A DNA stretch of 53,720 nt from assembly GCA_900320285.1 (NCBI GenBank), contig ONRQ01000005.1:1-53720 (forward strand), read 5' to 3'. Source of the stretch: an uncultured Eubacteriales bacterium. Lineage in GTDB: Bacteria; Bacillota; Clostridia; Peptostreptococcales; Anaerovoracaceae. Position numbers and translations under genes: made by a program. Below are positions 21,138 through 31,322 of this stretch, piece after piece (positions within the stretch are counted from its first letter, which is position 1; the number at the start of each line of letters is the position of its first letter). The notes below the pieces were generated by a model that worked only from the letters and a program-made list of their open reading frames with translations, had not been told where the DNA came from and searched no databases.

Positions 21138-21179
21138 ATGCATTTTGTGAAAAACAACAAAATTCAACAGAATTTTTGG

Positions 21180-21208
21180 TTGACATTGCTATAAATAGTT
21201 GCTATATT
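21180..21208 (+). promoter_or_regulatory. Promoter of the metNIQ leader
   Basis: A perfect TTGACA (21180-21185), a 17-nt spacer and TATATT (21203-21208) make this one of the strongest promoters in the window. The start point would be near 21215, giving a leader of about 208 nt before metN. Confidence 0.85.
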
Positions 21209-21245
21209 AGCAACTGAACTTATTCTATGAAAGGAGCACATTCAC

Positions 21246-21311
21246 ATGACAAGAAACATGATGATGGAAATGGGAATGATGGGCATGTGCATGTGCAGAG
21301 CCGATGAATAG
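21246..21311 (+). CDS. Methionine-rich leader peptide of metNIQ
   Basis: This 21-codon ORF lies between the promoter and the terminator before metN. Met occurs at positions 1, 5, 6, 7, 9, 11, 12, 14 and 16, and Cys at 15 and 17; it ends in RADE and TAG. Nine Met in 21 residues is far above chance, and a good AAGGAG site lies 9 nt upstream. Its position, its amino acid content and the switchable RNA structures downstream fit a sensor leader peptide: ribosome stalling at Met codons when charged tRNA-Met is scarce would free the antiterminator. A role as a metal-binding peptide is an alternative. No match to a known leader is claimed. Confidence 0.75.
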   Translation: MTRNMMMEMGMMGMCMCRADE

Positions 21312-21320
21312 CATAGGATA

Positions 21321-21391
21321 AGGTCGTAACGAAATCCAGAAACTGTGTATATTTCTCATGTGTGAGATGCCGGGGCAGGTCGTTAAGGCCT
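21321..21391 (+). promoter_or_regulatory. Predicted antiterminator of metNIQ
   Basis: AGGTCGTAACGA (21321-21332) pairs with TCGTTAAGGCCT (21380-21391). Eleven of 12 positions pair, including one G-U, with a single G-A mismatch. The 3' partner is the loop plus the start of the 3' arm of the terminator at 21372-21408, so the two structures exclude each other. The 5' partner begins 10 nt after the leader stop codon, where a terminating ribosome would reach it. Within the loop lies a small TCTCA/TGAGA hairpin. Confidence 0.65.
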
Positions 21392-21408
21392 GCCCCATAT
21401 TATTTTTT
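21372..21408 (+). terminator. Attenuator terminator before metN
   Basis: GGGGCAGG (21372-21379) pairs with CCTGCCCC (21389-21396) and is followed by ATATTATTTTTT. It ends 14 nt before the metN ATG, and there is no gene between the leader peptide and it, so it must act on the met transcript itself. Confidence 0.85.
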
Positions 21409-21422
21409 AGGAAAGGAACAGA

Positions 21423-22493
21423 ATGGCAGAACACATCATAAGATTGCAGGGCGTAACGAAGGAATTTGATACCAAAGGGGGCAAGGTAGTTGCACTGAAG
21501 GATATCGATCTGGACATAGAGAGAGGGGATTCATACGGTATAATCGGACTCTCCGGCGCAGGCAAGTCGACCCTGGTAAGAACGATCAATTTACTCGAGG
21601 AACCTACGGAAGGCAAGGTTATTTTTGACGGCAACCTTCTTACCGGCCTTAAGAACAAAGATCTCAATCTTCACCGCCGTAAGATTTCCATGATATTCCA
21701 GCAGTTCAACCTGCTGATGCAGAGAGACGCAATCGGCAATATCTGCTTCCCTATGGAAATTGCCGGGGTGCCTAAGGCCGAAGCGGTCAAGAAAGCAAAA
21801 GAGCTCCTCAAGGTGGTAGACCTCGAAGACAGAGCTCACTCGTATCCTTCACAGCTTTCCGGAGGACAGAAACAGAGAGTAGCTATAGCGAGGGCTCTTG
21901 CGTCCGACCCGGAGGTCATCCTCTGTGATGAGGCGACATCGGCTCTTGATCCGAAAACGACCAGATCGATCCTCAAGCTGCTGAGGCAGATAAATGAAGA
22001 GCGTGGTATTACGCTTGTTGTCATAACTCATGAAATGGGAGTTATCAAACAGCTTTGCAACAAGGTGGCAGTCATAGAAGGCGGCAGAATCGTTGAGAGA
22101 GGCGATGTGCAGGATGTCTTTGCAAGACCTAAGACTAAAGCCGCGAGGAAGTTGTTCTTCCCTGACAGCGAGGACAGTGAGCTCCCTGAGACAAGGACCG
22201 CAGTCCGCAACAGGCTGAGACTTGTGTTTGATGAGGAGACGGCATATAAACCGATCATTTCAAACATGATACTTGCGACCGGAGAGCCGGTAAATCTCCT
22301 GTATGCAAATATGGACGCACTTCTTGATGAGCAGAGAGGCCAGATGGTCATAGCACTGTCAGACAACAAGGAAGCAGCTGAAAAACAGAAGGCATACCTC
22401 ATCAAGGAGGGTGTTGAGTTTACGGAAATAGAAGAGGATTCGGATTATTATGACTATCCTCTTCACGGATTCAGAGAGGAGGAAAGTGAATAA
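21423..22493 (+). CDS. metN: Methionine ABC transporter ATP-binding protein
   Basis: This 356-residue ATPase powers uptake of methionine by MetNIQ. Walker A is GLSGAGKST (42-50), the signature is LSGGQKQRVAIARAL and Walker B is VILCDEATSALD. After about residue 255 comes the NIL domain, which in MetN binds methionine and inhibits transport when the internal pool is high. So feedback on activity and attenuation of expression may act on the same protein. It is preceded by an AGGAAAGGA site and ends with TAATG, which couples it to metI. Confidence 0.96.
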   Translation: MAEHIIRLQGVTKEFDTKGGKVVALKDIDLDIERGDSYGIIGLSGAGKSTLVRTINLLEEPTEGKVIFDGNLLTGLKNKDLNLHRRKISMIFQQFNLLMQRDAIGNICFPMEIAGVPKAEAVKKAKELLKVVDLEDRAHSYPSQLSGGQKQRVAIARALASDPEVILCDEATSALDPKTTRSILKLLRQINEERGITLVVITHEMGVIKQLCNKVAVIEGGRIVERGDVQDVFARPKTKAARKLFFPDSEDSELPETRTAVRNRLRLVFDEETAYKPIISNMILATGEPVNLLYANMDALLDEQRGQMVIALSDNKEAAEKQKAYLIKEGVEFTEIEEDSDYYDYPLHGFREEESE

Positions 22494-23155
22494 TGGATTT
22501 CAGTACATTAGGAAGCCTCCTCGGCCAGGGCACACTCGATACGCTTTACATGATCGTTGTCTGCACCGTTGTTTCATACATCATAGGGCTTCCGATAGGG
22601 GTATCTCTCATAGTAACTGCACCGGGCGGCATAAGACCGCTGGCGTTATATAACAAAGTAGTAGGATTTATAGTCAACATCCTGAGATCGGTACCGTTCC
22701 TGATCCTGATGATCGCTCTGATGCCGTACATACGTAAAATCATCGGAACGGGAATAGGCAAGGAGGCAGCTACTGCAGCTCTGATAGTGGCGGCAGCACC
22801 GTTTGTGGCAAGGCTTGTAGAGCAGTCGCTCCTCGAAGTAGACCCGGGAGTTATCGAGGCAGCACAGGCGATGGGAGCAAACAATTTCCAGATTGTCAGG
22901 AAAGTCCTGCTTCTCGAAGCGAGACCTTCACTTCTCAACGGGGCAGCGGTAGCAACGATCAACATCCTGGGATATACAGCGATGGCCGGCATAGTAGGAG
23001 CAGGCGGACTTGGAGAGATAGCAATCAGATATGGTCTTTACAGATTCCAGCCATCGATAATGTGGATAACGATAGTTATTCTGGTCATAATGGTACAGAT
23101 CCTTCAGGAGATAGGAATCAAGGTAGTTGCTAAATACGACAACCGTATCAACTGA
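22493..23155 (+). CDS. metI: Methionine ABC transporter permease
   Basis: This 220-residue inner-membrane permease has five predicted helices. LRSVPFLILMIALMPYIRKIIGT and the coupling-helix motif EAAQAMGANNFQIVRKVLL are typical of MetI. The start codon overlaps the metN stop by one base, with GAGGAGG just upstream. An 84-nt gap without a gene precedes metQ. Confidence 0.96.
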   Translation: MDFSTLGSLLGQGTLDTLYMIVVCTVVSYIIGLPIGVSLIVTAPGGIRPLALYNKVVGFIVNILRSVPFLILMIALMPYIRKIIGTGIGKEAATAALIVAAAPFVARLVEQSLLEVDPGVIEAAQAMGANNFQIVRKVLLLEARPSLLNGAAVATINILGYTAMAGIVGAGGLGEIAIRYGLYRFQPSIMWITIVILVIMVQILQEIGIKVVAKYDNRIN

Positions 23156-23239: not shown

Positions 23240-24067
23240 ATGAAGAACATCAAAAGATTCAGCATTATTGCAGCATTACTCGTGCTTACACTCGGTATTC
23301 TTACTGCATGCGGAGGCGGTGGTGACAGCAGTTCCGCAGACAAGACAATCAAGGTAGCAGCTTCGCCTACACCTCATGCAGAGATCCTCAATTCGATCTC
23401 TGAGGCGCTCGCGGAAGATGGCTGGACACTCGAGGTCGTTGAATTTGATGACTATGTACAGCCAAACGTAGCAACTACAGACGGAGATGTTGATGCCAAC
23501 TATTTCCAGCATGTACCTTACCTCGATCAGTACAACGCAGAGAACGGCACAGATCTGGTAGCTGTCGGAAACGTACACTATGAGGCAATGGGAGCTTACA
23601 AGGGCCAGAAGGACAGCTTCGATGCTCTCGCTGAGGGCGACAAGATCGGCGTTCCTAACGATGTAACCAATGAGGCCAGAGCCCTCCAGCTGCTTGCGGC
23701 AAATGGTGTTATCACACTCAAGGATGGAGTGGGACTGGAAGCAACCAAGACGGATATCGTTGACAATCCTAAGAACGTAGAAATAGTTGAGCTTGAAGCG
23801 GCAACTATTCCAAGCGCTCTTCCGGATGTAGCCCTGGGCGTCATCAACGCTAACTATGCACTCGGTGCAGGCCTTACAACTGACGACGCAGTAGCTTATG
23901 AGTCTGCTGACTCCGAGGCTGCTGAGACTTATGTGAATGTTATCGTTGTAAATGCAGGCAATGAGAACAGCGAGAAGACACAGGCTCTTGTAAAGGCTAT
24001 CCAGACAGATGCCGTCAAGGACTTCATACTCGAGAAGTACAATGGAGCTGTTCAGCCTAAGTTCTAA
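23240..24067 (+). CDS. metQ: Methionine-binding lipoprotein
   Basis: This 275-residue substrate-binding lipoprotein is the surface component of MetNIQ. The signal peptide ends in ILTAC with Cys24 lipidated, followed by a Gly/Ser linker. VAASPTPHAEIL, WTLEVVEFDDYVQPN, DANYFQHVPYL and KIGVPNDVTNEARALQLL are hallmarks of the NlpA/MetQ family, which binds L-methionine and often D-methionine. The AGAAAGGGG site fixes the start. The racemase-family gene follows after 7 nt. Confidence 0.95.
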   Translation: MKNIKRFSIIAALLVLTLGILTACGGGGDSSSADKTIKVAASPTPHAEILNSISEALAEDGWTLEVVEFDDYVQPNVATTDGDVDANYFQHVPYLDQYNAENGTDLVAVGNVHYEAMGAYKGQKDSFDALAEGDKIGVPNDVTNEARALQLLAANGVITLKDGVGLEATKTDIVDNPKNVEIVELEAATIPSALPDVALGVINANYALGAGLTTDDAVAYESADSEAAETYVNVIVVNAGNENSEKTQALVKAIQTDAVKDFILEKYNGAVQPKF

Positions 24068-24074
24068 ACAATAA

Positions 24075-24779
24075 ATGAGCAAAATTGTAAAAACAGCAGT
24101 AATAGCGGGAACTCCCGTAGATACTCAGATGGGTGTCGAATACATTGAACGTAAGATGCATGAAGCCGGCTGTGAGCCCGGCTTCATGCCTTTGTATTGC
24201 CCGGCGGCAATCGACTGTGACGATCAGGTCAAATTCCAGTACTCGGACGATGATGAAAAACGTGCGATAATGGACAACATCTTTGATCAGGCGATACAGG
24301 ATGGGGCCAGAGACTTCTTCATTTACTGCAATTCGCTTTCAGGAGCATTCGACTTTGACAGCTATGCTCTGCGTAAGTCCATTGATTCCGGTGAGGACAT
24401 AAGGATCTACACTCCGCTGCAGGTGTACAGGAGGCTTGGAAGCGCATATGACCGCATCGGAGTCATGGCTGCAAACAATCTCTCGGCTCACGGGATCGAG
24501 GAGGCGCTCATGGCCGCCAATCCTGACATTTATATGATAGGGACCGGCAACATGGCGATTGTCCGTGCAATTGAGGATGAAATGCCACCGGAAGAGATAG
24601 TGGATAAGTGTGGCATAGCCGATCTCCTGAAGTATTTTGAAGCATGCGGAGCCGAAGCCCTTGTGCTTGGCTGTACACACTTTCCGTATTTCAAGGAAGA
24701 GCTGGAAAAACTGACAAGTCTGCCGATCATCGATCCGGCGGACGAAATGTTCGAAGCCTTGCTTAAAGCGACCCGATAG
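24075..24779 (+). CDS. Aspartate/glutamate racemase-family protein
   Basis: This 234-residue protein has the two catalytic Cys of cofactor-independent amino acid racemases: Cys85 in IYCNSLSGA and Cys200 in LGCTHFPYF. The second motif is strongly conserved; the first differs from the usual ACNTA of Asp/Glu racemases, so the substrate may differ. It is the last gene of the met operon and is followed by a terminator. Because MetNIQ systems can import D-methionine, conversion of a D-amino acid is an attractive but unproven role. Plain Asp or Glu racemase activity is the main alternative. Confidence 0.8.
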   Translation: MSKIVKTAVIAGTPVDTQMGVEYIERKMHEAGCEPGFMPLYCPAAIDCDDQVKFQYSDDDEKRAIMDNIFDQAIQDGARDFFIYCNSLSGAFDFDSYALRKSIDSGEDIRIYTPLQVYRRLGSAYDRIGVMAANNLSAHGIEEALMAANPDIYMIGTGNMAIVRAIEDEMPPEEIVDKCGIADLLKYFEACGAEALVLGCTHFPYFKEELEKLTSLPIIDPADEMFEALLKATR

Positions 24780-24935: not shown

Positions 24936-27900
24936 ATGGCAGAAAACTTTAAAAAAGTAGGTAAATGGGGTGAATGCCTCTGGGGTATCGATGAGAACGG
25001 CAACCTTCTCATCGACAGCGGATCAGCTGCAGATCTGGGTGACGAAGGAGCTCCTTGGAAGGGCTTTGAGGACGTTATCAGATCTGTGGTCGCAGCGCGC
25101 GGTGTGAGCTTCCCTGACGGAGCATCGCTGGCAGGACTTTTCAAGGGATGCAGAAAAATGGTGAAGGCGGATCTCAGCGGATTCGACACTTCAAATGTCA
25201 CTCGCATGGACTCGATGTTTGAAGGCTGCGCGAATCTCAGCGAAATCGACATCTCGTCCTTCGATACAAGACGCTGCTCAGACATGAGCCGGATGTTCGC
25301 TCAGTGCGCAAAGCTGGACGATATTCTCCTCGGCGAAGGTTTCAGCACGGAAGGTGACGGCAGCACAGACTGCGGAAGACTTGCTGTGAAGGAGTACGGC
25401 AAGTACAGGAAGGCAAAGCCGATCGCCGTAGAAGGATTCAGAGTGCTTTACCACAGCAATTTCGAAGGCGGGGCAGAAGAAGTGGCCGAAGAAAGATTCA
25501 CGGTTCCTAATTCTGCATATCGTGTAGAGGCTCCTATGTTCGACAGACCGGATGAGAGCTGGAAGTTCATGTCCTGGAATTCCCGCCCTGACGGAAGCGG
25601 TGCAGAGATCCCTGCGGGAGTGGAGATCGATGAAGTCGACAGGGATATCGATTTTTATGCTATATGGGGACATGCACCGAAGATCGGAGAAATCACAGAG
25701 CCGGCTGCTTTCTCGTTCGGCGAGGTGATTCCGTTTGAGCTGCCTGAGATCATTTCAATCAACGACCGTGAGGTGACGGGCTATCTCGAGATAAGTGAGA
25801 CAGGTGAAGAGGGGACCTGGCGCGCGATCAATCACAACGCCATCCTGCCTGTATCATGCAACGGATACCTTCTGAGACTCCACGCGGCAAACAGCGTTGG
25901 AGAGGCTGTCTCAAACACCGTGAGACTGAACATCAGAAGAGCAAATATAGATGTATCTGGCGTACGCTGGGCAGAAGAAGATGACATGACCTATGACGGC
26001 GGCAAAAAGCATGTATGGCTGGAGGGACTGCCTGAGGGCGTGGTGCCTAAATACACCGGAAACGTGGGAATTGAAGCCGGCACATACACCGCGACGATCA
26101 GCTTCGATTTTGATCAGGATAATTTCAACGAACCTCTTATAGTACGTGAGCACGAGTGGACCATCCGCAAGGGCACCTACGACATGTCGCAGGTGAGCTG
26201 GGTCTACGACGGACCGTTCGTATATGACGGCACAGGCCACGGTGTAGAGCTCAAAGGACTGCCTGAAGGGGTCACCGCAGGTTATGAGGACAATAAAGCT
26301 CTGAATGCAGGCGTTTATACAGCAAAGGCCAGATTTGATTACGACAGCGCAAATTATGAAAAGCCGCAGGATGTGGCTCCATGCGTATGGGAAATCAAAA
26401 AGGTGGGTCTCCATGCTGCAGATCTTGAGTGGTCCGGATGCGAAGATTTTGTATATGACGGCTCCCCGAAGAAGGTATTCATAATGAATCTGCCTGAGGA
26501 CGCAGCGGTCGAATACGAAGGAGCAGAGGAGACTCAGGCGGGCAAATATCTGGCCAGAGCTTCTGTGGACGGCAATTACTGCTTCATGGGTCCTGCGGAA
26601 TATGAGTGGGAGATCGCCAAGGCTTCATATGATATGTCCCGCACAGCGTGGTGCGATGAGACGGACTTCGAATACGACGGAGACGTACACGGAGTAAAGC
26701 TGACATCGTACCCTGAGGAACTCACAGTAAGATACAGCGGATGTGAGGGAAGAAGAGCCGGCGAGTATACCGCCCGCGCAGTTTTCATCAATCCGGATAC
26801 ACATAATTACCATACACCTGAGGATATGACCATCGGATGGAGGATAGGCAAGAAGAGTCTTGACATGTCCGGCGTCAGATGGAATTACGGCGGGGCGTTC
26901 ACATATGACGGAGAGGTCAAGAAGGTAGAACTCGAAGGGCTGCCTGAGGGCGTATACGCGGAATACGAAAATGCTTCCGCATACGATGCAGGCATATATA
27001 ACGCACATGCTAATCTCAAATATGACGGGGACAATCTTGAAGTTGCATCCCCTGCGGACTGCACCTGGAGGATCCTCAAGAGAAAAATAGATATTTCGGA
27101 TGTATGCTGGGATTACTCCGAGCCTTTCGAATATGACGGGAACGAGCACAGCATATATCTTGTCAATGTTCCTGAAGGAGTCGAAGTCGAGTACAGCGGA
27201 AACACATGCATCGAGGCGGGCAAGTACGCGGCGAGCGCAGTGCTCGTGCCGACTGACGCAGGCAACTTCGAGGTTCCTGAGATAAACGGCTGCACATGGT
27301 CGATCGATAAGGCAGAGTACAAGCTGCCGAAGCTCTCGTGGACTGATTCTTCCGCATTCATTTATGACGGCAGTGAAAAGAGTGTCGGCATAATCAATGA
27401 CCTCGGTGACGCCGTCAGAGTGGAATACACAGGTAACACCGCAGCAGGCGCGGGCAGATACTTCGCGAAGGCGGTGTTCACTCCGGTCGATGAGGACAAC
27501 TTCAGCGCACCTGATCCTCAGGGTTATTCCTGGAGCATCGGAAAGGCGCACTTCGACATGAGCGGAGCCTACTGGGATTACAGCGAGCCGTTCGTTTATG
27601 ACGGAAGACCTAAGACTGTAAGAGTAGCCGGACTTCCTGACGGCGTTTCTGCAGAGTACTTCAACGCATCTGCTACAGATGCAGGCTCTTACACATCGAC
27701 TGCAAAGTTCAGGGTCATGGACGCTGATAATTACGAAGATAATATCCCTGACATGATGCTCGACTGGAGCATAGACAAGGCATCATTTGACATGAGCGGT
27801 GTCAGATGGCAGGAGAACAGGGAATTCTCGTACGATGGCGAGACAAAGAGCATAAGGCTGACAGGACTGCCTGAGGGCCTCACGCCTGAATACGAAGGAA

Positions 27901-30900
27901 GCTCGGCTTCAGAGGCAGGTGAATACACAGCCAGAGCCGGTTTCGAATATGATGCAAAGAACTACAGGAAGCCGGAAGTGGCAACATGCCACTGGATTAT
28001 CGAGAGAACTCCTGTAGATATATCGACAGTAAGCTGGGATTACGAAGAAGCGTTCATATATGACGGTAAAGAAAAGACGGTTGCTGTCAGGAACATTCCG
28101 GAAGGTACTGAAGTCAGGTACAACAATGCGAAGGCAAGTCAGGCAGGCACATATGTAGCTGCTGCCGAGATCATTCCTGAAGACACGGACAACCTCACAA
28201 AGTCCAGACTTGAGAACCTCACATGGAGGATCGACAAGGGCAATTACGACATGAGCCACGTCCGCTGGGATTACGAGAAGCCTTTCACATATGACGGAAG
28301 CGAGTTCAGAGTGATCCTGAAAGGACTGCCTGAGGGCGTTCTGCCTACTTACAGAGGCAATACGGCGCGCGATGCCGGATCATACAGGGCCAGCGTTTCG
28401 TTTACAGCCGCGGACAGCTGCAACTTCAACACTCCTGAGCCGATGGAACTCGAGTGGGAGGTCAGAAAAGCTGAATACGATATGTCGGGAGCCTCCTGGG
28501 ATTATGAGGGCGAGTTCAGATACAACGGAAGAATGCATGAAGTATCGCTCAGAGGACTTCCTGATGGAGTCAGGGCTGTTTACTCCGGTAATGCTGCAGC
28601 CGACACTGGTTCATACGAGGCAGCTGCTGAACTGATCCCTTATGACTCATACAACTATAACCAGCCGAAAATCGAAAGCTGCAAGTGGCAGATCGCGAAG
28701 GCTGATTACGACATGTCCGCTGTAAGATGGGATTACAGCAGCCCTAAGGTATTCAACGGAAGAGAGCAGAGCGTCATGCTCGAGCATCTCCCGAACGGCA
28801 TCAAGGCTGAATATACAGGCAATGAGGGCAAGGAAGCCGGCAAATACACCGCAAAAGCGATACTCACGGTATCTGATACCGCAAACTACAATACTCCTTC
28901 GGTGGCAGACTGCGACTGGGAGATCGCAAAGGCCGATTATGACATGTCGGCAGTCGAATGGGACTACGAGCCGGGATGCTTCACATTTGACGGCAGCAGA
29001 AAGAGCATCGGGCTTAAAGACCTTCCGGAAAATGTTACAGCTACATACAACGAGAACAGCGCTGACAAAGCCGGCAACTATGTTGCTACAGCCAGCTTTG
29101 CTACATCTGACAGCAACTTCAATGCTCCGGATCCTATAAGTATCGACTGGTGCATCAACAAGGCTGACTACGATATGAGCGAAGCTGCATGGGATTATGA
29201 CGGAAGTTTCGTATTTGACGGCACACCTAAGAGGATACAGCTGACAGGCCTTCCTGAAGGAGTGAGCGTCAGCTATGAGGGCAATACTGCTGTAAACGCT
29301 GACAGCTACAGAGCTGTCGCAAGGTTCGGCATCGACACTTCGGACTTCAATGTACCTGAAGAAATGAGCTGTGACTGGGCGATCGAAAAGGCTGATCCGG
29401 ACATCCGCGGACTTAGATGGGACTACTCTCGTTCATTTGTCTATGACGGCAAGGCTAAGACCGTAAAGCTCGAGGGCATTCCGGGATCGCTCAACGCCGA
29501 GTATACAGGCAATACAGCAGAGGCAGCCGGTGTTTACACGGCACATGCCGAGCTGACACCTAAAGATCCTGCTAATTACAACGGAGCGTCTATAAGGGAC
29601 TGCGAATGGCGCATTACAAAGGCAACCTATGACATGTCGGGCGCAAGATGGGAAGGCGAATTCAAATCCGTATATGACGGAAGCGAAAAGTCAGTATACA
29701 TCGCGGGCCTTCCGGAGGGTGTCACCCCTGTATATCACGGAAACACCGCTGTCAATGTAGGCAACTACAGCGCGACAGCAGACCTTGAGTACGATGCGAA
29801 CAACTATTACACACCTGAGATCGGCGGATGCGAGTGGAGTATCAGCAAGGCTGTATATGACATGTCGAAGACCGCGTGGCAGGGTGTCACTGGATTTACA
29901 TTTGACGGAAACGCAAAGACCGTAGAACTTACAGGTCTGCCTGAAGGAATCACACCGGTCTACGAGGGCAACATGGCTACAGACGCCGGCTCATACTCGG
30001 CTTCAGTAACTCTGGAATACGATGCGGATAACTACGAGAAGCCGACCTTCAGCGGATGTAACTGGAGCATAGCTCCTGCTGCTGTTGATGTTGATACCAG
30101 CGCAGTGGAATGGGTCTATGACGGTCCTTATATGTACGATGGCACACCTAAGAGCGTCTGCATAGCCACAAAGACCCAACCTCTCGGCTTCTTCGAGAAG
30201 CTGCGCGGAGTAGAGCCTGAATCTTACCTCGCAGGTATCCCTGAGGGATTTGATGTGGTTTATGAGGGCGAGACTGCGACTGACGCAGGCGTCTATTATA
30301 CGACTGCAAAGCTGGTGAACAGAGAACCGGGCAACTACACTGAGCGCGAGCTCCCGCCGTTCAAGTGGGAGATTCTTAAAGCTCCTATCGATATGAGCGG
30401 TGTACACTGGGACTATGAGAGCCCGTTTACATTTGACAACGAAGAGAAGTGTGTCGAACTTGCAGGACTTCCTGACACGGTCAAGGTTACATACAGCAAC
30501 AACAGAGCCGTGAACTCCGGTGAATACGAGGCAATGGCAGTTGTAGAGGCGAAGGATCCGGTCAACTATGAGACACCGGCTCCTGTCAGCGGATGCTGGT
30601 GGCATATCGATAAGGCAAGCTACGATATGTCCGAAGTGCACTGGGATTACGAGAATGAGTTCGTGTATAACGGCAAGGAAAAGAGCGTAAGGCTGCTCGG
30701 CCTGCCTGAAGGTGTCAGGGTAGAAGCATATGTAGGCAACAAGGGCGTTGATGCAGGCGGATATACCGCTGAGGCAAAGCTCAGATACAAACATAAAGAG
30801 AACTATGAAGCTCCTTCAGTACCTGAACTCAGGTGGAGGATCGCAAAGAAGGAACTCGATCTCTCGAATGTTAAGTGGAACTACGATGATGAGACTGTCT

Positions 30901-31322
30901 TCGTATACGATGACAAGGCTAAAGAAGTGAAACTCGAAGGAGTACCGGAAGATATCGAGGTCGTTTACACCGACAACTCCAAGATCAATGCCGGCACATA
31001 CACTGCAAGGGCAAGGCTCATCTATGACACACGCAACTGCGAAGCTGCAGAGATACCTGACCTCAAGTGGAGGATCCTCAGAGCTAAATATGACACTTCC
31101 ATGGTACGCTGGGATTACGATGAACCATTCGAATATGATGGTACAGAGAAGCACATCACCCTCAAGGGAGTTCCATGGCAGATCGCCGTCAGATACAGAG
31201 ACAACAGAGCAATCGCTCCCGGCAGATATACTGCCAAGGCGTATCTGACATACGATAATGAAAACTATGAGACTCCTGAGATCGATACCACCATCGACTG
31301 GGAGATCACCGGAAAGGAATAA
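24936..31322 (+). CDS. Giant repeat protein: BspA-like LRR, InlB-type module, 23 MBG/YDG-type Ig-like repeats
   Basis: This is a 2128-residue protein. Residues about 60-130 contain BspA-like (DUF285) leucine-rich motifs, including FDTSNVTRMDSMFEGCANL. Residues about 165-245 resemble an InlB B-repeat (FMSWNSRPDGSGAEIP). From residue 337 to the end run 23 repeats of about 76-80 residues, each with W-Y-x-F-YDG-x-K-V-L-GLPEGV-x-Y-x-GN-x-AG-Y-A-x-NY-P-x-W-I-K. Such domains normally occur in secreted adhesins. Here I see no signal peptide (the N terminus is MAENFKKVGKWGE), no LPXTG motif, no membrane helix and no C-terminal anchor. The stop overlaps the next start (TAATG), so it is translated together with the CNNM-secA genes. 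Confidence 0.85.
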   Translation: MAENFKKVGKWGECLWGIDENGNLLIDSGSAADLGDEGAPWKGFEDVIRSVVAARGVSFPDGASLAGLFKGCRKMVKADLSGFDTSNVTRMDSMFEGCANLSEIDISSFDTRRCSDMSRMFAQCAKLDDILLGEGFSTEGDGSTDCGRLAVKEYGKYRKAKPIAVEGFRVLYHSNFEGGAEEVAEERFTVPNSAYRVEAPMFDRPDESWKFMSWNSRPDGSGAEIPAGVEIDEVDRDIDFYAIWGHAPKIGEITEPAAFSFGEVIPFELPEIISINDREVTGYLEISETGEEGTWRAINHNAILPVSCNGYLLRLHAANSVGEAVSNTVRLNIRRANIDVSGVRWAEEDDMTYDGGKKHVWLEGLPEGVVPKYTGNVGIEAGTYTATISFDFDQDNFNEPLIVREHEWTIRKGTYDMSQVSWVYDGPFVYDGTGHGVELKGLPEGVTAGYEDNKALNAGVYTAKARFDYDSANYEKPQDVAPCVWEIKKVGLHAADLEWSGCEDFVYDGSPKKVFIMNLPEDAAVEYEGAEETQAGKYLARASVDGNYCFMGPAEYEWEIAKASYDMSRTAWCDETDFEYDGDVHGVKLTSYPEELTVRYSGCEGRRAGEYTARAVFINPDTHNYHTPEDMTIGWRIGKKSLDMSGVRWNYGGAFTYDGEVKKVELEGLPEGVYAEYENASAYDAGIYNAHANLKYDGDNLEVASPADCTWRILKRKIDISDVCWDYSEPFEYDGNEHSIYLVNVPEGVEVEYSGNTCIEAGKYAASAVLVPTDAGNFEVPEINGCTWSIDKAEYKLPKLSWTDSSAFIYDGSEKSVGIINDLGDAVRVEYTGNTAAGAGRYFAKAVFTPVDEDNFSAPDPQGYSWSIGKAHFDMSGAYWDYSEPFVYDGRPKTVRVAGLPDGVSAEYFNASATDAGSYTSTAKFRVMDADNYEDNIPDMMLDWSIDKASFDMSGVRWQENREFSYDGETKSIRLTGLPEGLTPEYEGSSASEAGEYTARAGFEYDAKNYRKPEVATCHWIIERTPVDISTVSWDYEEAFIYDGKEKTVAVRNIPEGTEVRYNNAKASQAGTYVAAAEIIPEDTDNLTKSRLENLTWRIDKGNYDMSHVRWDYEKPFTYDGSEFRVILKGLPEGVLPTYRGNTARDAGSYRASVSFTAADSCNFNTPEPMELEWEVRKAEYDMSGASWDYEGEFRYNGRMHEVSLRGLPDGVRAVYSGNAAADTGSYEAAAELIPYDSYNYNQPKIESCKWQIAKADYDMSAVRWDYSSPKVFNGREQSVMLEHLPNGIKAEYTGNEGKEAGKYTAKAILTVSDTANYNTPSVADCDWEIAKADYDMSAVEWDYEPGCFTFDGSRKSIGLKDLPENVTATYNENSADKAGNYVATASFATSDSNFNAPDPISIDWCINKADYDMSEAAWDYDGSFVFDGTPKRIQLTGLPEGVSVSYEGNTAVNADSYRAVARFGIDTSDFNVPEEMSCDWAIEKADPDIRGLRWDYSRSFVYDGKAKTVKLEGIPGSLNAEYTGNTAEAAGVYTAHAELTPKDPANYNGASIRDCEWRITKATYDMSGARWEGEFKSVYDGSEKSVYIAGLPEGVTPVYHGNTAVNVGNYSATADLEYDANNYYTPEIGGCEWSISKAVYDMSKTAWQGVTGFTFDGNAKTVELTGLPEGITPVYEGNMATDAGSYSASVTLEYDADNYEKPTFSGCNWSIAPAAVDVDTSAVEWVYDGPYMYDGTPKSVCIATKTQPLGFFEKLRGVEPESYLAGIPEGFDVVYEGETATDAGVYYTTAKLVNREPGNYTERELPPFKWEILKAPIDMSGVHWDYESPFTFDNEEKCVELAGLPDTVKVTYSNNRAVNSGEYEAMAVVEAKDPVNYETPAPVSGCWWHIDKASYDMSEVHWDYENEFVYNGKEKSVRLLGLPEGVRVEAYVGNKGVDAGGYTAEAKLRYKHKENYEAPSVPELRWRIAKKELDLSNVKWNYDDETVFVYDDKAKEVKLEGVPEDIEVVYTDNSKINAGTYTARARLIYDTRNCEAAEIPDLKWRILRAKYDTSMVRWDYDEPFEYDGTEKHITLKGVPWQIAVRYRDNRAIAPGRYTAKAYLTYDNENYETPEIDTTIDWEITGKE
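25944..31319 (+). repeat. Array of 23 tandem protein-coding repeats, about 230 bp each
   Basis: The repeats are conserved at protein level but diverged in DNA, so the array is old rather than a recent slippage product. The joint between units reads like KADYDMSAVRWDY, most alike in units 12-14. Unit 19 is longer, with about 20 extra residues around TQPLGFFEKLRGVEPESYLA (near 30.17-30.24 kb). Units 3 and 4 lack the usual GLPEGV. Confidence 0.85.

Follow-up and report, generated by a model that had tools for sequence, protein, structure and literature searches.

Introduction

A short, Met-rich open reading frame (ORF) and a terminator stand ahead of the methionine transport operon metNIQ in a 53,720-nt stretch of clostridial DNA (the window), and the question raised by this locus is how such a leader might control the operon behind it. 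The met genes of Firmicutes are usually controlled by S-adenosylmethionine (SAM) riboswitches and T-boxes. A preliminary description, made from the letters of the window, proposed that a ribosome translating the ORF decides whether the terminator forms. The analysis reported here indicates a real, conserved regulatory leader, for which Met-reading, ribosome-mediated attenuation is the most likely explanation. Briefly, the metNIQ leader is probably a leader-peptide transcription attenuator that senses methionine, and perhaps cysteine, through translation of an ORF of Met and Cys codons; that the ribosome stalls, in what sequence the steps follow, which way the operon responds and that cysteine takes part are what we infer in this model.

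Layout of the Leader and the Operon

The features considered below are all located on the forward strand:

21180..21208, + strand, sigma-70-type promoter (TTGACA-17-TATATT), read from the sequence; transcription would start at about 21215
21215..21229, + strand, segment 1 of helix P1, the transcript 5′ end, predicted from the covariation alignment and partner permutation to pair with 21312-21326
21232..21236, + strand, AGGAG, putative ribosome binding site for leader translation, without variation among the 37 aligned sequences
21236..21248, + strand, 5′ arm of helix P1b, running from the last base of the ribosome binding site through the start codon; predicted partner 21284-21296 (12 pairs in the alignment, 100% of cells paired)
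21246..21311, + strand, leader ORF, MTRNMMMEMGMMGMCMCRADE followed by a stop codon; frame kept in 43 of 43 distinct copies
21284..21296, + strand, 3′ arm of P1b, formed by the Met-Cys-Met-Cys codons; compensating bases in copies with Cys-to-Arg changes
21312..21326, + strand, first half of segment 2 (P1′), predicted partner of segment 1 by permutation and alignment; overlaps the antiterminator strand
21321..21332, + strand, segment 2, candidate antiterminator strand (P2), AGGTCGTAACGA; pairing with P3 kept in all 32 core-genus copies examined
21354..21367, + strand, small hairpin TCTCA-TGTG-TGAGA between P2 and the terminator, read from the sequence
21372..21396, + strand, terminator stem-loop of 10 pairs, 8 of them GC (−21.4 kcal/mol); loop and 3′ arm at 21380-21391 form P3
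21397..21408, + strand, T-rich tail of the terminator, read from the sequence
21423..22493, + strand, metN, ATPase with NIL domain (Pfam ABC_tran and NIL)
22493..23155, + strand, metI, permease (Pfam BPD_transp_1)
23240..24067, + strand, metQ, NlpA-type binding lipoprotein (Pfam Lipoprotein_9)
24075..24779, + strand, Asp/Glu racemase family gene (Pfam)

The preliminary description had named a consensus promoter, a leader ORF of 21 codons with nine Met and two Cys and a good ribosome binding site, a strong terminator 14 nt before metN and the three transporter genes, and all of these are present, the last identified independently by their Pfam domains. The promoter consists of a −35 hexamer (TTGACA, 21180-21185), a 17-nt spacer and a −10 hexamer (TATATT, 21203-21208) preceded by TG, and agrees with the consensus at 11 of 12 positions; two such promoter-like sites were found in 651 nt, where shuffled sequences give 1.2, and the consensus match is therefore weak evidence on its own. 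The terminator tail ends at 21408, 14 nt ahead of the metN start at 21423. The control codons match the operon, since 9 of the 21 leader codons ahead of metNIQ are Met codons. The racemase gene follows metQ after a gap of 7 nt, which suggests co-transcription, and probably belongs to the same operon. The small hairpin at 21354-21367, whose position is occupied by a hairpin of differing sequence in many relatives as judged by eye, is possibly a pause hairpin. The source genome has 2.0 Mb and is 78.6% complete, and the nearest metN loci come from assemblies labeled Mogibacterium sp. (sheep and goat gut) or uncultured Clostridiales bacterium.

Frame Conservation in the Leader ORF

Conservation of the ORF in relatives had been set beforehand as a test of the preliminary description, and the frame is kept in all 43 distinct copies compared, 41 of which come from the window's genus and its nearest loci and two (L104 and L105) from a second genus. 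The ATG and the Met core are 33 nt apart in 23 copies, 36 nt in 17, 39 nt in one and 42 nt in two, a multiple of three in each of the 43. Behind the core, the spacer to the next conserved block measures 12, 13, 14, 15, or 16 nt irrespective of frame, and the stop codon shifts along with it. Because the length between ATG and core varies in threes only, the leader ORF appears to be translated, and the whole pattern would be expected if selection acted on Met codons in frame and left the C-terminus free. Each of the 43 leaders holds 7–10 Met codons.

The Hairpin Enclosing the Leader ORF

The preliminary description placed the ORF, the terminator and the 11-of-12 pairing correctly and overlooked a conserved hairpin of two helices, in which 21215-21229 would pair with 21312-21326 (P1) and 21236-21248 with 21284-21296 (P1b), leaving Met codons in the loop. 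The entire leader ORF lies within the loop of the 1:2 helix. Furthermore, P1 overlaps P2 at 21321-21326, the AGGTC half of the antiterminator strand, and the pairings of segments 1:2, 2:3, and 3:4 would thus be partly mutually exclusive.

RNAalifold, applied to the first 22 copies, recovers both helices; its covariation term is only −0.25. In an alignment of 37 distinct copies (the 42 distinct copies minus L008, L103, L185, L186, and L187), a standard pair occupies 97.2% of the cells of P1 and P1b together. For P1 the value is 94.6%, with changes on both sides at two pairs (in L097 and L188), and for P1b all cells of the 12 pairs are paired though 7 of these pairs vary, again with changes on both sides at two pairs. 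The four pairs changed on both sides compare with a mean of 0.9 in shuffles, of which 1 in 500 reached as many. A control in which the partners were slid by −2 columns also gave four such pairs (in five cells, against six), so that double changes alone cannot fix the register of the helix; in that control 50.4% of cells were paired, against 97.2%. P1 could also be formed with other sequences in the diverged copies L103, L104, L185, and L188. Its own partner was better than in all 5,000 permutations among 15 types, picked by hand as for the P2/P3 test below, in permutation controls that leave relatedness in. The preference is weak inside the core genus (447 of 2,000 permutations as good). A separate test gave P1 no support in nine leaders outside the genus (p 0.11–0.92) and was also weak in L103 (p 0.13), L104 (p 0.06), and L105 (p 0.47). 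L002 lacks most of P1 (TTATTCT is absent). On the whole, the comparison argues for both hairpin helices.

The codons of the P1b 3′ arm bear on what is conserved, the RNA or the peptide. In 4 of the 42 distinct copies a Cys is changed to Arg, the first Cys in L024, L178, and L191 and the second in L093, and the matching base is present on the other arm in all four; this is the most telling observation, since the base pair is kept and the amino acid is not. L024 and L191 look related, so that the independent events would number fewer than four. Nucleotide conservation is very high throughout, much of 21220-21300 being invariant or nearly so in the 37 copies.

Searches for Riboswitches and T-boxes

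A riboswitch in the same leader had been named as an observation that would speak against ribosome-mediated control, and no Rfam family matches the leader at its gathering score. A search with a relaxed threshold gave four sRNA matches only, all below their cut-offs. The covariance model of the SAM-I riboswitch (RF00162) has no match in the leader and two elsewhere in the source genome, and that of the T-box (RF00230) has no match in the leader and one, below the cut-off, elsewhere in the genome. Across the genus, SAM-I riboswitches occur in 37 of 40 genomes and T-box matches in 31 of 40, three of them over the cut-off, and a MetE-type domain (PF01717) occurs in 1 of 40. In the four loci that were read, the ORF after the SAM-I riboswitch is presumably metK-like, as recognized from the look of its sequence, one of the four being a shorter piece. 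The genus thus has SAM-type and tRNA-type controls, yet the metNIQ leader matches neither. As a separate observation, the metN locus L033 of Cellulosilyticum carries a SAM-I riboswitch where others have Met leaders, that is, a different kind of sensing at the same gene.

The hairpin might nevertheless be a new metabolite-binding riboswitch, for Met or SAM, that happens to hold an ORF and whose aptamer includes the Met-rich loop. Such an aptamer would account for the near-invariance of 21220-21300, for helix changes that mostly keep pairing and for the Cys-to-Arg changes, which favor RNA over peptide; control by SAM is, besides, usual for met genes in this phylum. It is difficult to reconcile with an ORF side of the loop that changes length in threes only in 43 of 43 copies, with 12 metN regions outside the genus that keep Met-rich ORFs within other RNA sequences, with a leader devoid of any Rfam family match and with standard SAM riboswitches that stand elsewhere in the genus, before the metK-like ORF in the four loci read, and we regard it as improbable.

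The Terminator and Its Proposed Competing Helix

The preliminary description had paired 21321-21332 (AGGTCGTAACGA) with 21380-21391 (TCGTTAAGGCCT), and 11 of the 12 positions do pair, one of them as G-U (T21324-G21388), the remaining position being a G-A mismatch. The RNAduplex energy of P2/P3 is equaled in 2% of 1,000 dinucleotide shuffles of the leader (p 0.02); a stricter test, restricted to contiguous helices, does not single it out (p 0.55). Conservation of this alternative pairing in relatives, the second point that the description had laid open to refutation, is borne out in the core genus, where P2/P3 is kept in 32 of 32 copies examined, a set without L022, L102, L184, and L189, in which parts are missing. 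These partial losses affect the terminator 3′ arm in L022, P1′ and P2 in L102 and L189, and the stretch from the −10 to the start codon in L184, and may be misassemblies in draft assemblies. The own partner beats all but 11 of 5,000 permutations among the 15 hand-picked types and all but 51 of 5,000 among the 8 most different ones; inside the core genus no preference was seen, 2,000 of 2,000 permutations being as good. Furthermore, the terminator loop GTTA, a feature that a plain terminator does not need, is retained in nearly all genus copies, the exceptions being L025, L188, and L191. L024 shows a double change, TAACAA with TTGTTA, and L188 has lost the TAAC/GTTA core. The comparison thus shows a conserved terminator with a conserved loop and makes the antiterminator likely rather than proven. 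The antiterminator takes the loop and the 3′ arm of the terminator, and the 3′ arm is transcribed last.

Folding in Different Ribosome States

The partition function was calculated for RNA exposed to different positions and with the ribosome at different places on the leader. When a ribosome is stalled at MCMC, pairing across it is barred and the RNA is exposed to 21392, a state in which P1 cannot form, the antiterminator reaches a probability of 0.87–0.89 and the terminator 0.06; in the free RNA, where P1 can form, the values are 0.69–0.73 and 0.14. As a candidate anti-antiterminator, P1 alone therefore protects little in the calculation, since the free RNA still favors the antiterminator. 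The preliminary description supposed that a ribosome at the stop codon masks the start of 21321-21332. With RNA to 21392, this holds if the ribosome edge lies at 21323 or beyond, where the antiterminator falls to at most 0.04 and the terminator rises to 0.56–0.59. It fails with an edge at 21322, where the antiterminator still forms at 0.47–0.77, and with an edge at 21320-21321, where it reaches 0.79–0.98, about equal to or above the stalled state, which in the calculation has the wrong sign for the simple model. We take the normal footprint of a ribosome at the leader stop to end at about 21320-21321; the masking step accordingly stands on a threshold of about 2 nt and may even act in reverse.

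The stalled ribosome covers neither P1 nor P1′. With RNA to 21392, P1 has a probability of 0.78–0.94 beside it, and in the plain calculation P1 is removed by a ribosome at the stop codon and is not melted by a stalled one. With RNA to 21394 and to 21396, the terminator leads whichever ribosome state was tried, and any antitermination must therefore be kinetic, because the complete terminator wins in each calculated state.

These values bring in a second way of reading a translated ORF, in which the switch has the opposite sign or a further layer: the hairpin would chiefly conceal the start site of the leader, and the frequency of leader translation, for example through the level of initiator tRNA, would set the terminator, with stalling playing no part. 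P1b would bury the start codon together with the last part of the ribosome binding site, the calculated stalled ribosome leaves P1 stable while one at the stop removes it, and a stop-codon ribosome with the nominal edge of 21320-21321 allows the antiterminator, all of which agree with such a scheme. It leaves the 7–10 Met codons in 43 of 43 copies unexplained, and appears unlikely to us.

Distribution in the Genus and Beyond

The element occurs in 44 of the 47 genomes of the window's genus, which comprises Mogibacterium-like gut Clostridia. One of the three genomes without it (G677) seems to have no metN, its best MetN match being 44% identical over part of the protein. Among the 25 nearest metN loci (L002–L026), 23 carry the Met core of the leader, and L011 is cut at its 5′ side; L013, on a cut contig, has a degenerate leader copy, and L020 shows no core in its 80 nt of upstream sequence. 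A covariance model derived from 23 copies matched 22 of 296 family genomes: two belong to the second genus, and the other 20 are among 21 genomes of the window's genus. All 22 matches precede metN: eight are loci already collected and fourteen were read with their downstream ORF.

A wider sample was drawn from the Clostridia by similarity to the MetN of the window. From 123 metN regions with at least 220 nt upstream, 101 dereplicated regions were obtained; truncated or mis-started loci (L115, L116, L118, L126, L128, L142, and L166), loci with less than 220 nt upstream and loci fetched by the RNA model were left out of the count. A Met-rich short ORF, defined by at least five Met within 16 residues after the start, precedes metN in 25 of the 101 regions, a share that describes this sample and is not a census. 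The reverse strands of the 101 yield one such ORF and 4,040 shuffles likewise one; the other 76 regions have none. Thirteen of the 25 lie in the genus and twelve outside. The twelve are dereplicated by sequence, which does not prove them independent, and L028 and L031 share much of the peptide. The peptides outside the genus include MTSQRNSCMMNMMDMCMGMCMCTFTDKF (L028), MRTSVIVMCNMCDMCGMCNMYDM (L029, Herbinix hemicellulosilytica), MANYSSKNIMMMDMMMCMGAMCMF (L119), and SDMYMCMCMSM (L145). Comparison supports the enclosing hairpin in the window's genus only, while Met-rich leaders appear to reach wider.

A helix that would compete with the terminator was tested in 11 systems outside the genus. It is strong in L141 (11 contiguous bp, p 0.002) and L145 (12 bp, p 0.008), where part of the leader ORF pairs with arm and loop of the terminator, reaches p 0.047 in L027 and L119 and is not significant in seven; Fisher's method, applied to all 13 systems tested, gives a combined p of 0.003. 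L043 was left out of this test, its terminator not being found by the tail rule, which also found none for L003, L014, and L080.

These counts weigh against another alternative, an ordinary operon leader in which a Met-rich ORF arose by chance before a plain terminator and nothing switches. The strict contiguous-helix test, which does not single out the antiterminator, and the complete terminator, which wins in every state tried, are what such a leader would give. It is very hard to believe given the ORF in 25 of 101 metN regions, where the reverse strand offers 1 in 101 and shuffles 1 in 4,040, and given an element conserved in 44 of 47 genus genomes.

The peptides themselves suggest a further alternative. 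The same peptide motif, MxMCMC or MYMC, comes back in leaders of unrelated RNA (L027, L028, L031, L043, L104, and L145), as though a nascent chain with MxMCMC arrested the ribosome in response to free Met, Cys, or SAM and tRNA charging were not what is read; the leader of Streptomyces lividans likewise ends in CMCRRMCAF (PMC8079986). Arg replaces Cys in four genus copies with the RNA pair kept, and in the distant leaders the residues between the Met vary, which suits the counting of codons more than an arrest sequence that is fixed, so that an arrest peptide strikes us as rather improbable. A strict DNA pattern for MGMCMC matched the window alone among 391 genomes of the class (223 genera with few genomes each), and no credible family was found for the leader peptides in NCBIfam (five peptides) or Pfam (four peptides).

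Comparison with Known Leaders

In the layout of the trp attenuator, the mutual exclusion of helices 1:2, 2:3, and 3:4 is the textbook scheme. The window leader shares with attenuators of the trp, his, and leu type a leader ORF rich in the relevant amino acid, a set of three putative competing helices and an intrinsic terminator. It differs from them in that segment 1 is the transcript 5′ end, upstream of the ribosome binding site, so that the ORF lies in the 1:2 loop, and in that the candidate antiterminator uses the loop and 3′ arm of the terminator.

The preliminary description expected a Met leader peptide to be a new variation. Met leaders as such have already been proposed in Campylobacter jejuni and S. 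lividans (PMC3847290; PMC8079986). In S. lividans TK24, the leader metL before metNIQ is a proposed attenuator, for which its authors found no typical Rho-independent terminator (PMC8079986). Like the window leader, metL is a short ORF with Met and Cys before the same operon, a likeness judged by eye. By contrast, metL is a leaderless ORF of 29 codons with three Met including the start (PMC8079986), whereas the 21 codons of the window leader include nine Met and are accompanied by a ribosome binding site, an intrinsic terminator and competing helices that are conserved. In C. jejuni, MetL was proposed before metBA, with an RNA that ends shortly behind the stop codon (PMC3847290), and a start-site signal for it was obtained by Ribo-seq in a study that also gives a further Met-rich small ORF, MMYQMR, before a binding protein of D-methionine type (PMC11955535). 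C. jejuni MetL differs from the window leader in preceding biosynthesis genes and in having three Met in 20 amino acids, and its authors find it in C. jejuni, C. coli, and C. doylei only. Furthermore, His leaders before hisS genes have been described in bacilli (PMC2965389). Among the matches listed from the open-access literature, which leaves subscription journals and preprints outside its scope, none concerns a Met leader peptide in Clostridia. The window leader is most likely a further form of known Met leader attenuation, with an arrangement that encloses the ORF.

Proposed Mechanism and Its Meaning

For attenuation by a Met-reading ribosome, the following order of events is proposed. When Met is plentiful, the ribosome would traverse the whole leader ORF; at the stop codon it would mask the start of segment 2, and after its release the P1b/P1 hairpin would zip closed from the inside outward. 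In both cases the antiterminator strand would be deprived of its AGGTC half, so that the terminator forms and metNIQ stays unread. When Met (or Cys) is short, the ribosome would stall inside the ORF, P1b would be blocked and segment 2 left free; its TAACGA would pair with the terminator loop as this emerges, the antiterminator would extend through AGGTC, and the RNA polymerase would continue into metNIQ. The zipper is preferred because the plain calculation shows the stalled ribosome leaving P1 intact: a stalled ribosome would block P1b, without which the long-range P1 is presumably slow to close. The leader would thereby probably let the cell read more of its uptake genes when methionine runs short.

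Methionine is also the amino acid with which translation starts, which poses the question of how a ribosome can report a shortage of Met while needing Met to start. Shortage should also cut initiator fMet-tRNA and with it initiation on the leader, an effect that the simple model ignores. A T-box that reads initiator tRNA has reportedly been described for methionine synthesis in Staphylococcus aureus. A genus that has both a SAM riboswitch and an apparent Met-codon leader would separate the SAM level from the supply of Met for protein synthesis.

A bolder reading, offered tentatively as a possibility with the odds against it, is that the ribosome is enclosed by its own switch. The ORF would lie in the loop of a 5′-end hairpin, the Met-Cys-Met-Cys codons would be sensor codons and closing helix at once, the leaders would form a widespread class in Clostridia, and MxMCMC would make them joint sensors of sulfur amino acids by codon starvation or by nascent-chain arrest. 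The 12 metN regions with Met-rich leaders outside the genus, including that of Herbinix hemicellulosilytica (L029), open the class to comparative and bench study.

Further Observations at the Locus

Several minor features were noted beside the leader. In L023 and L013, the stretch from the terminator to metN holds a second, degenerate copy of the Met-rich leader, and the genomes G686 and G689 each have a second match to the covariance model. Behind the racemase gene, an ORF of 2,128 residues (24936-31322) holds many similar repeats (YDG...KAxYDMS, by eye), and Pfam places a DUF285 stretch close to its start and adds two matches in which no single stretch is significant. An inverted repeat, TAGTTGC-TATATTA-GCAACTG, spans the −10 hexamer at 21196-21216 and is a possible operator, with variants in relatives such as TTGTTATATTAACA, as judged by eye. 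Upstream of the promoter, an A/T-rich box, TTTTGTGAAAAACAACAAA (21143-21161), is shared by many relatives by eye and is a longer dyad in L017; it is a possible transcription-factor site and, if so, would add a second layer of control.
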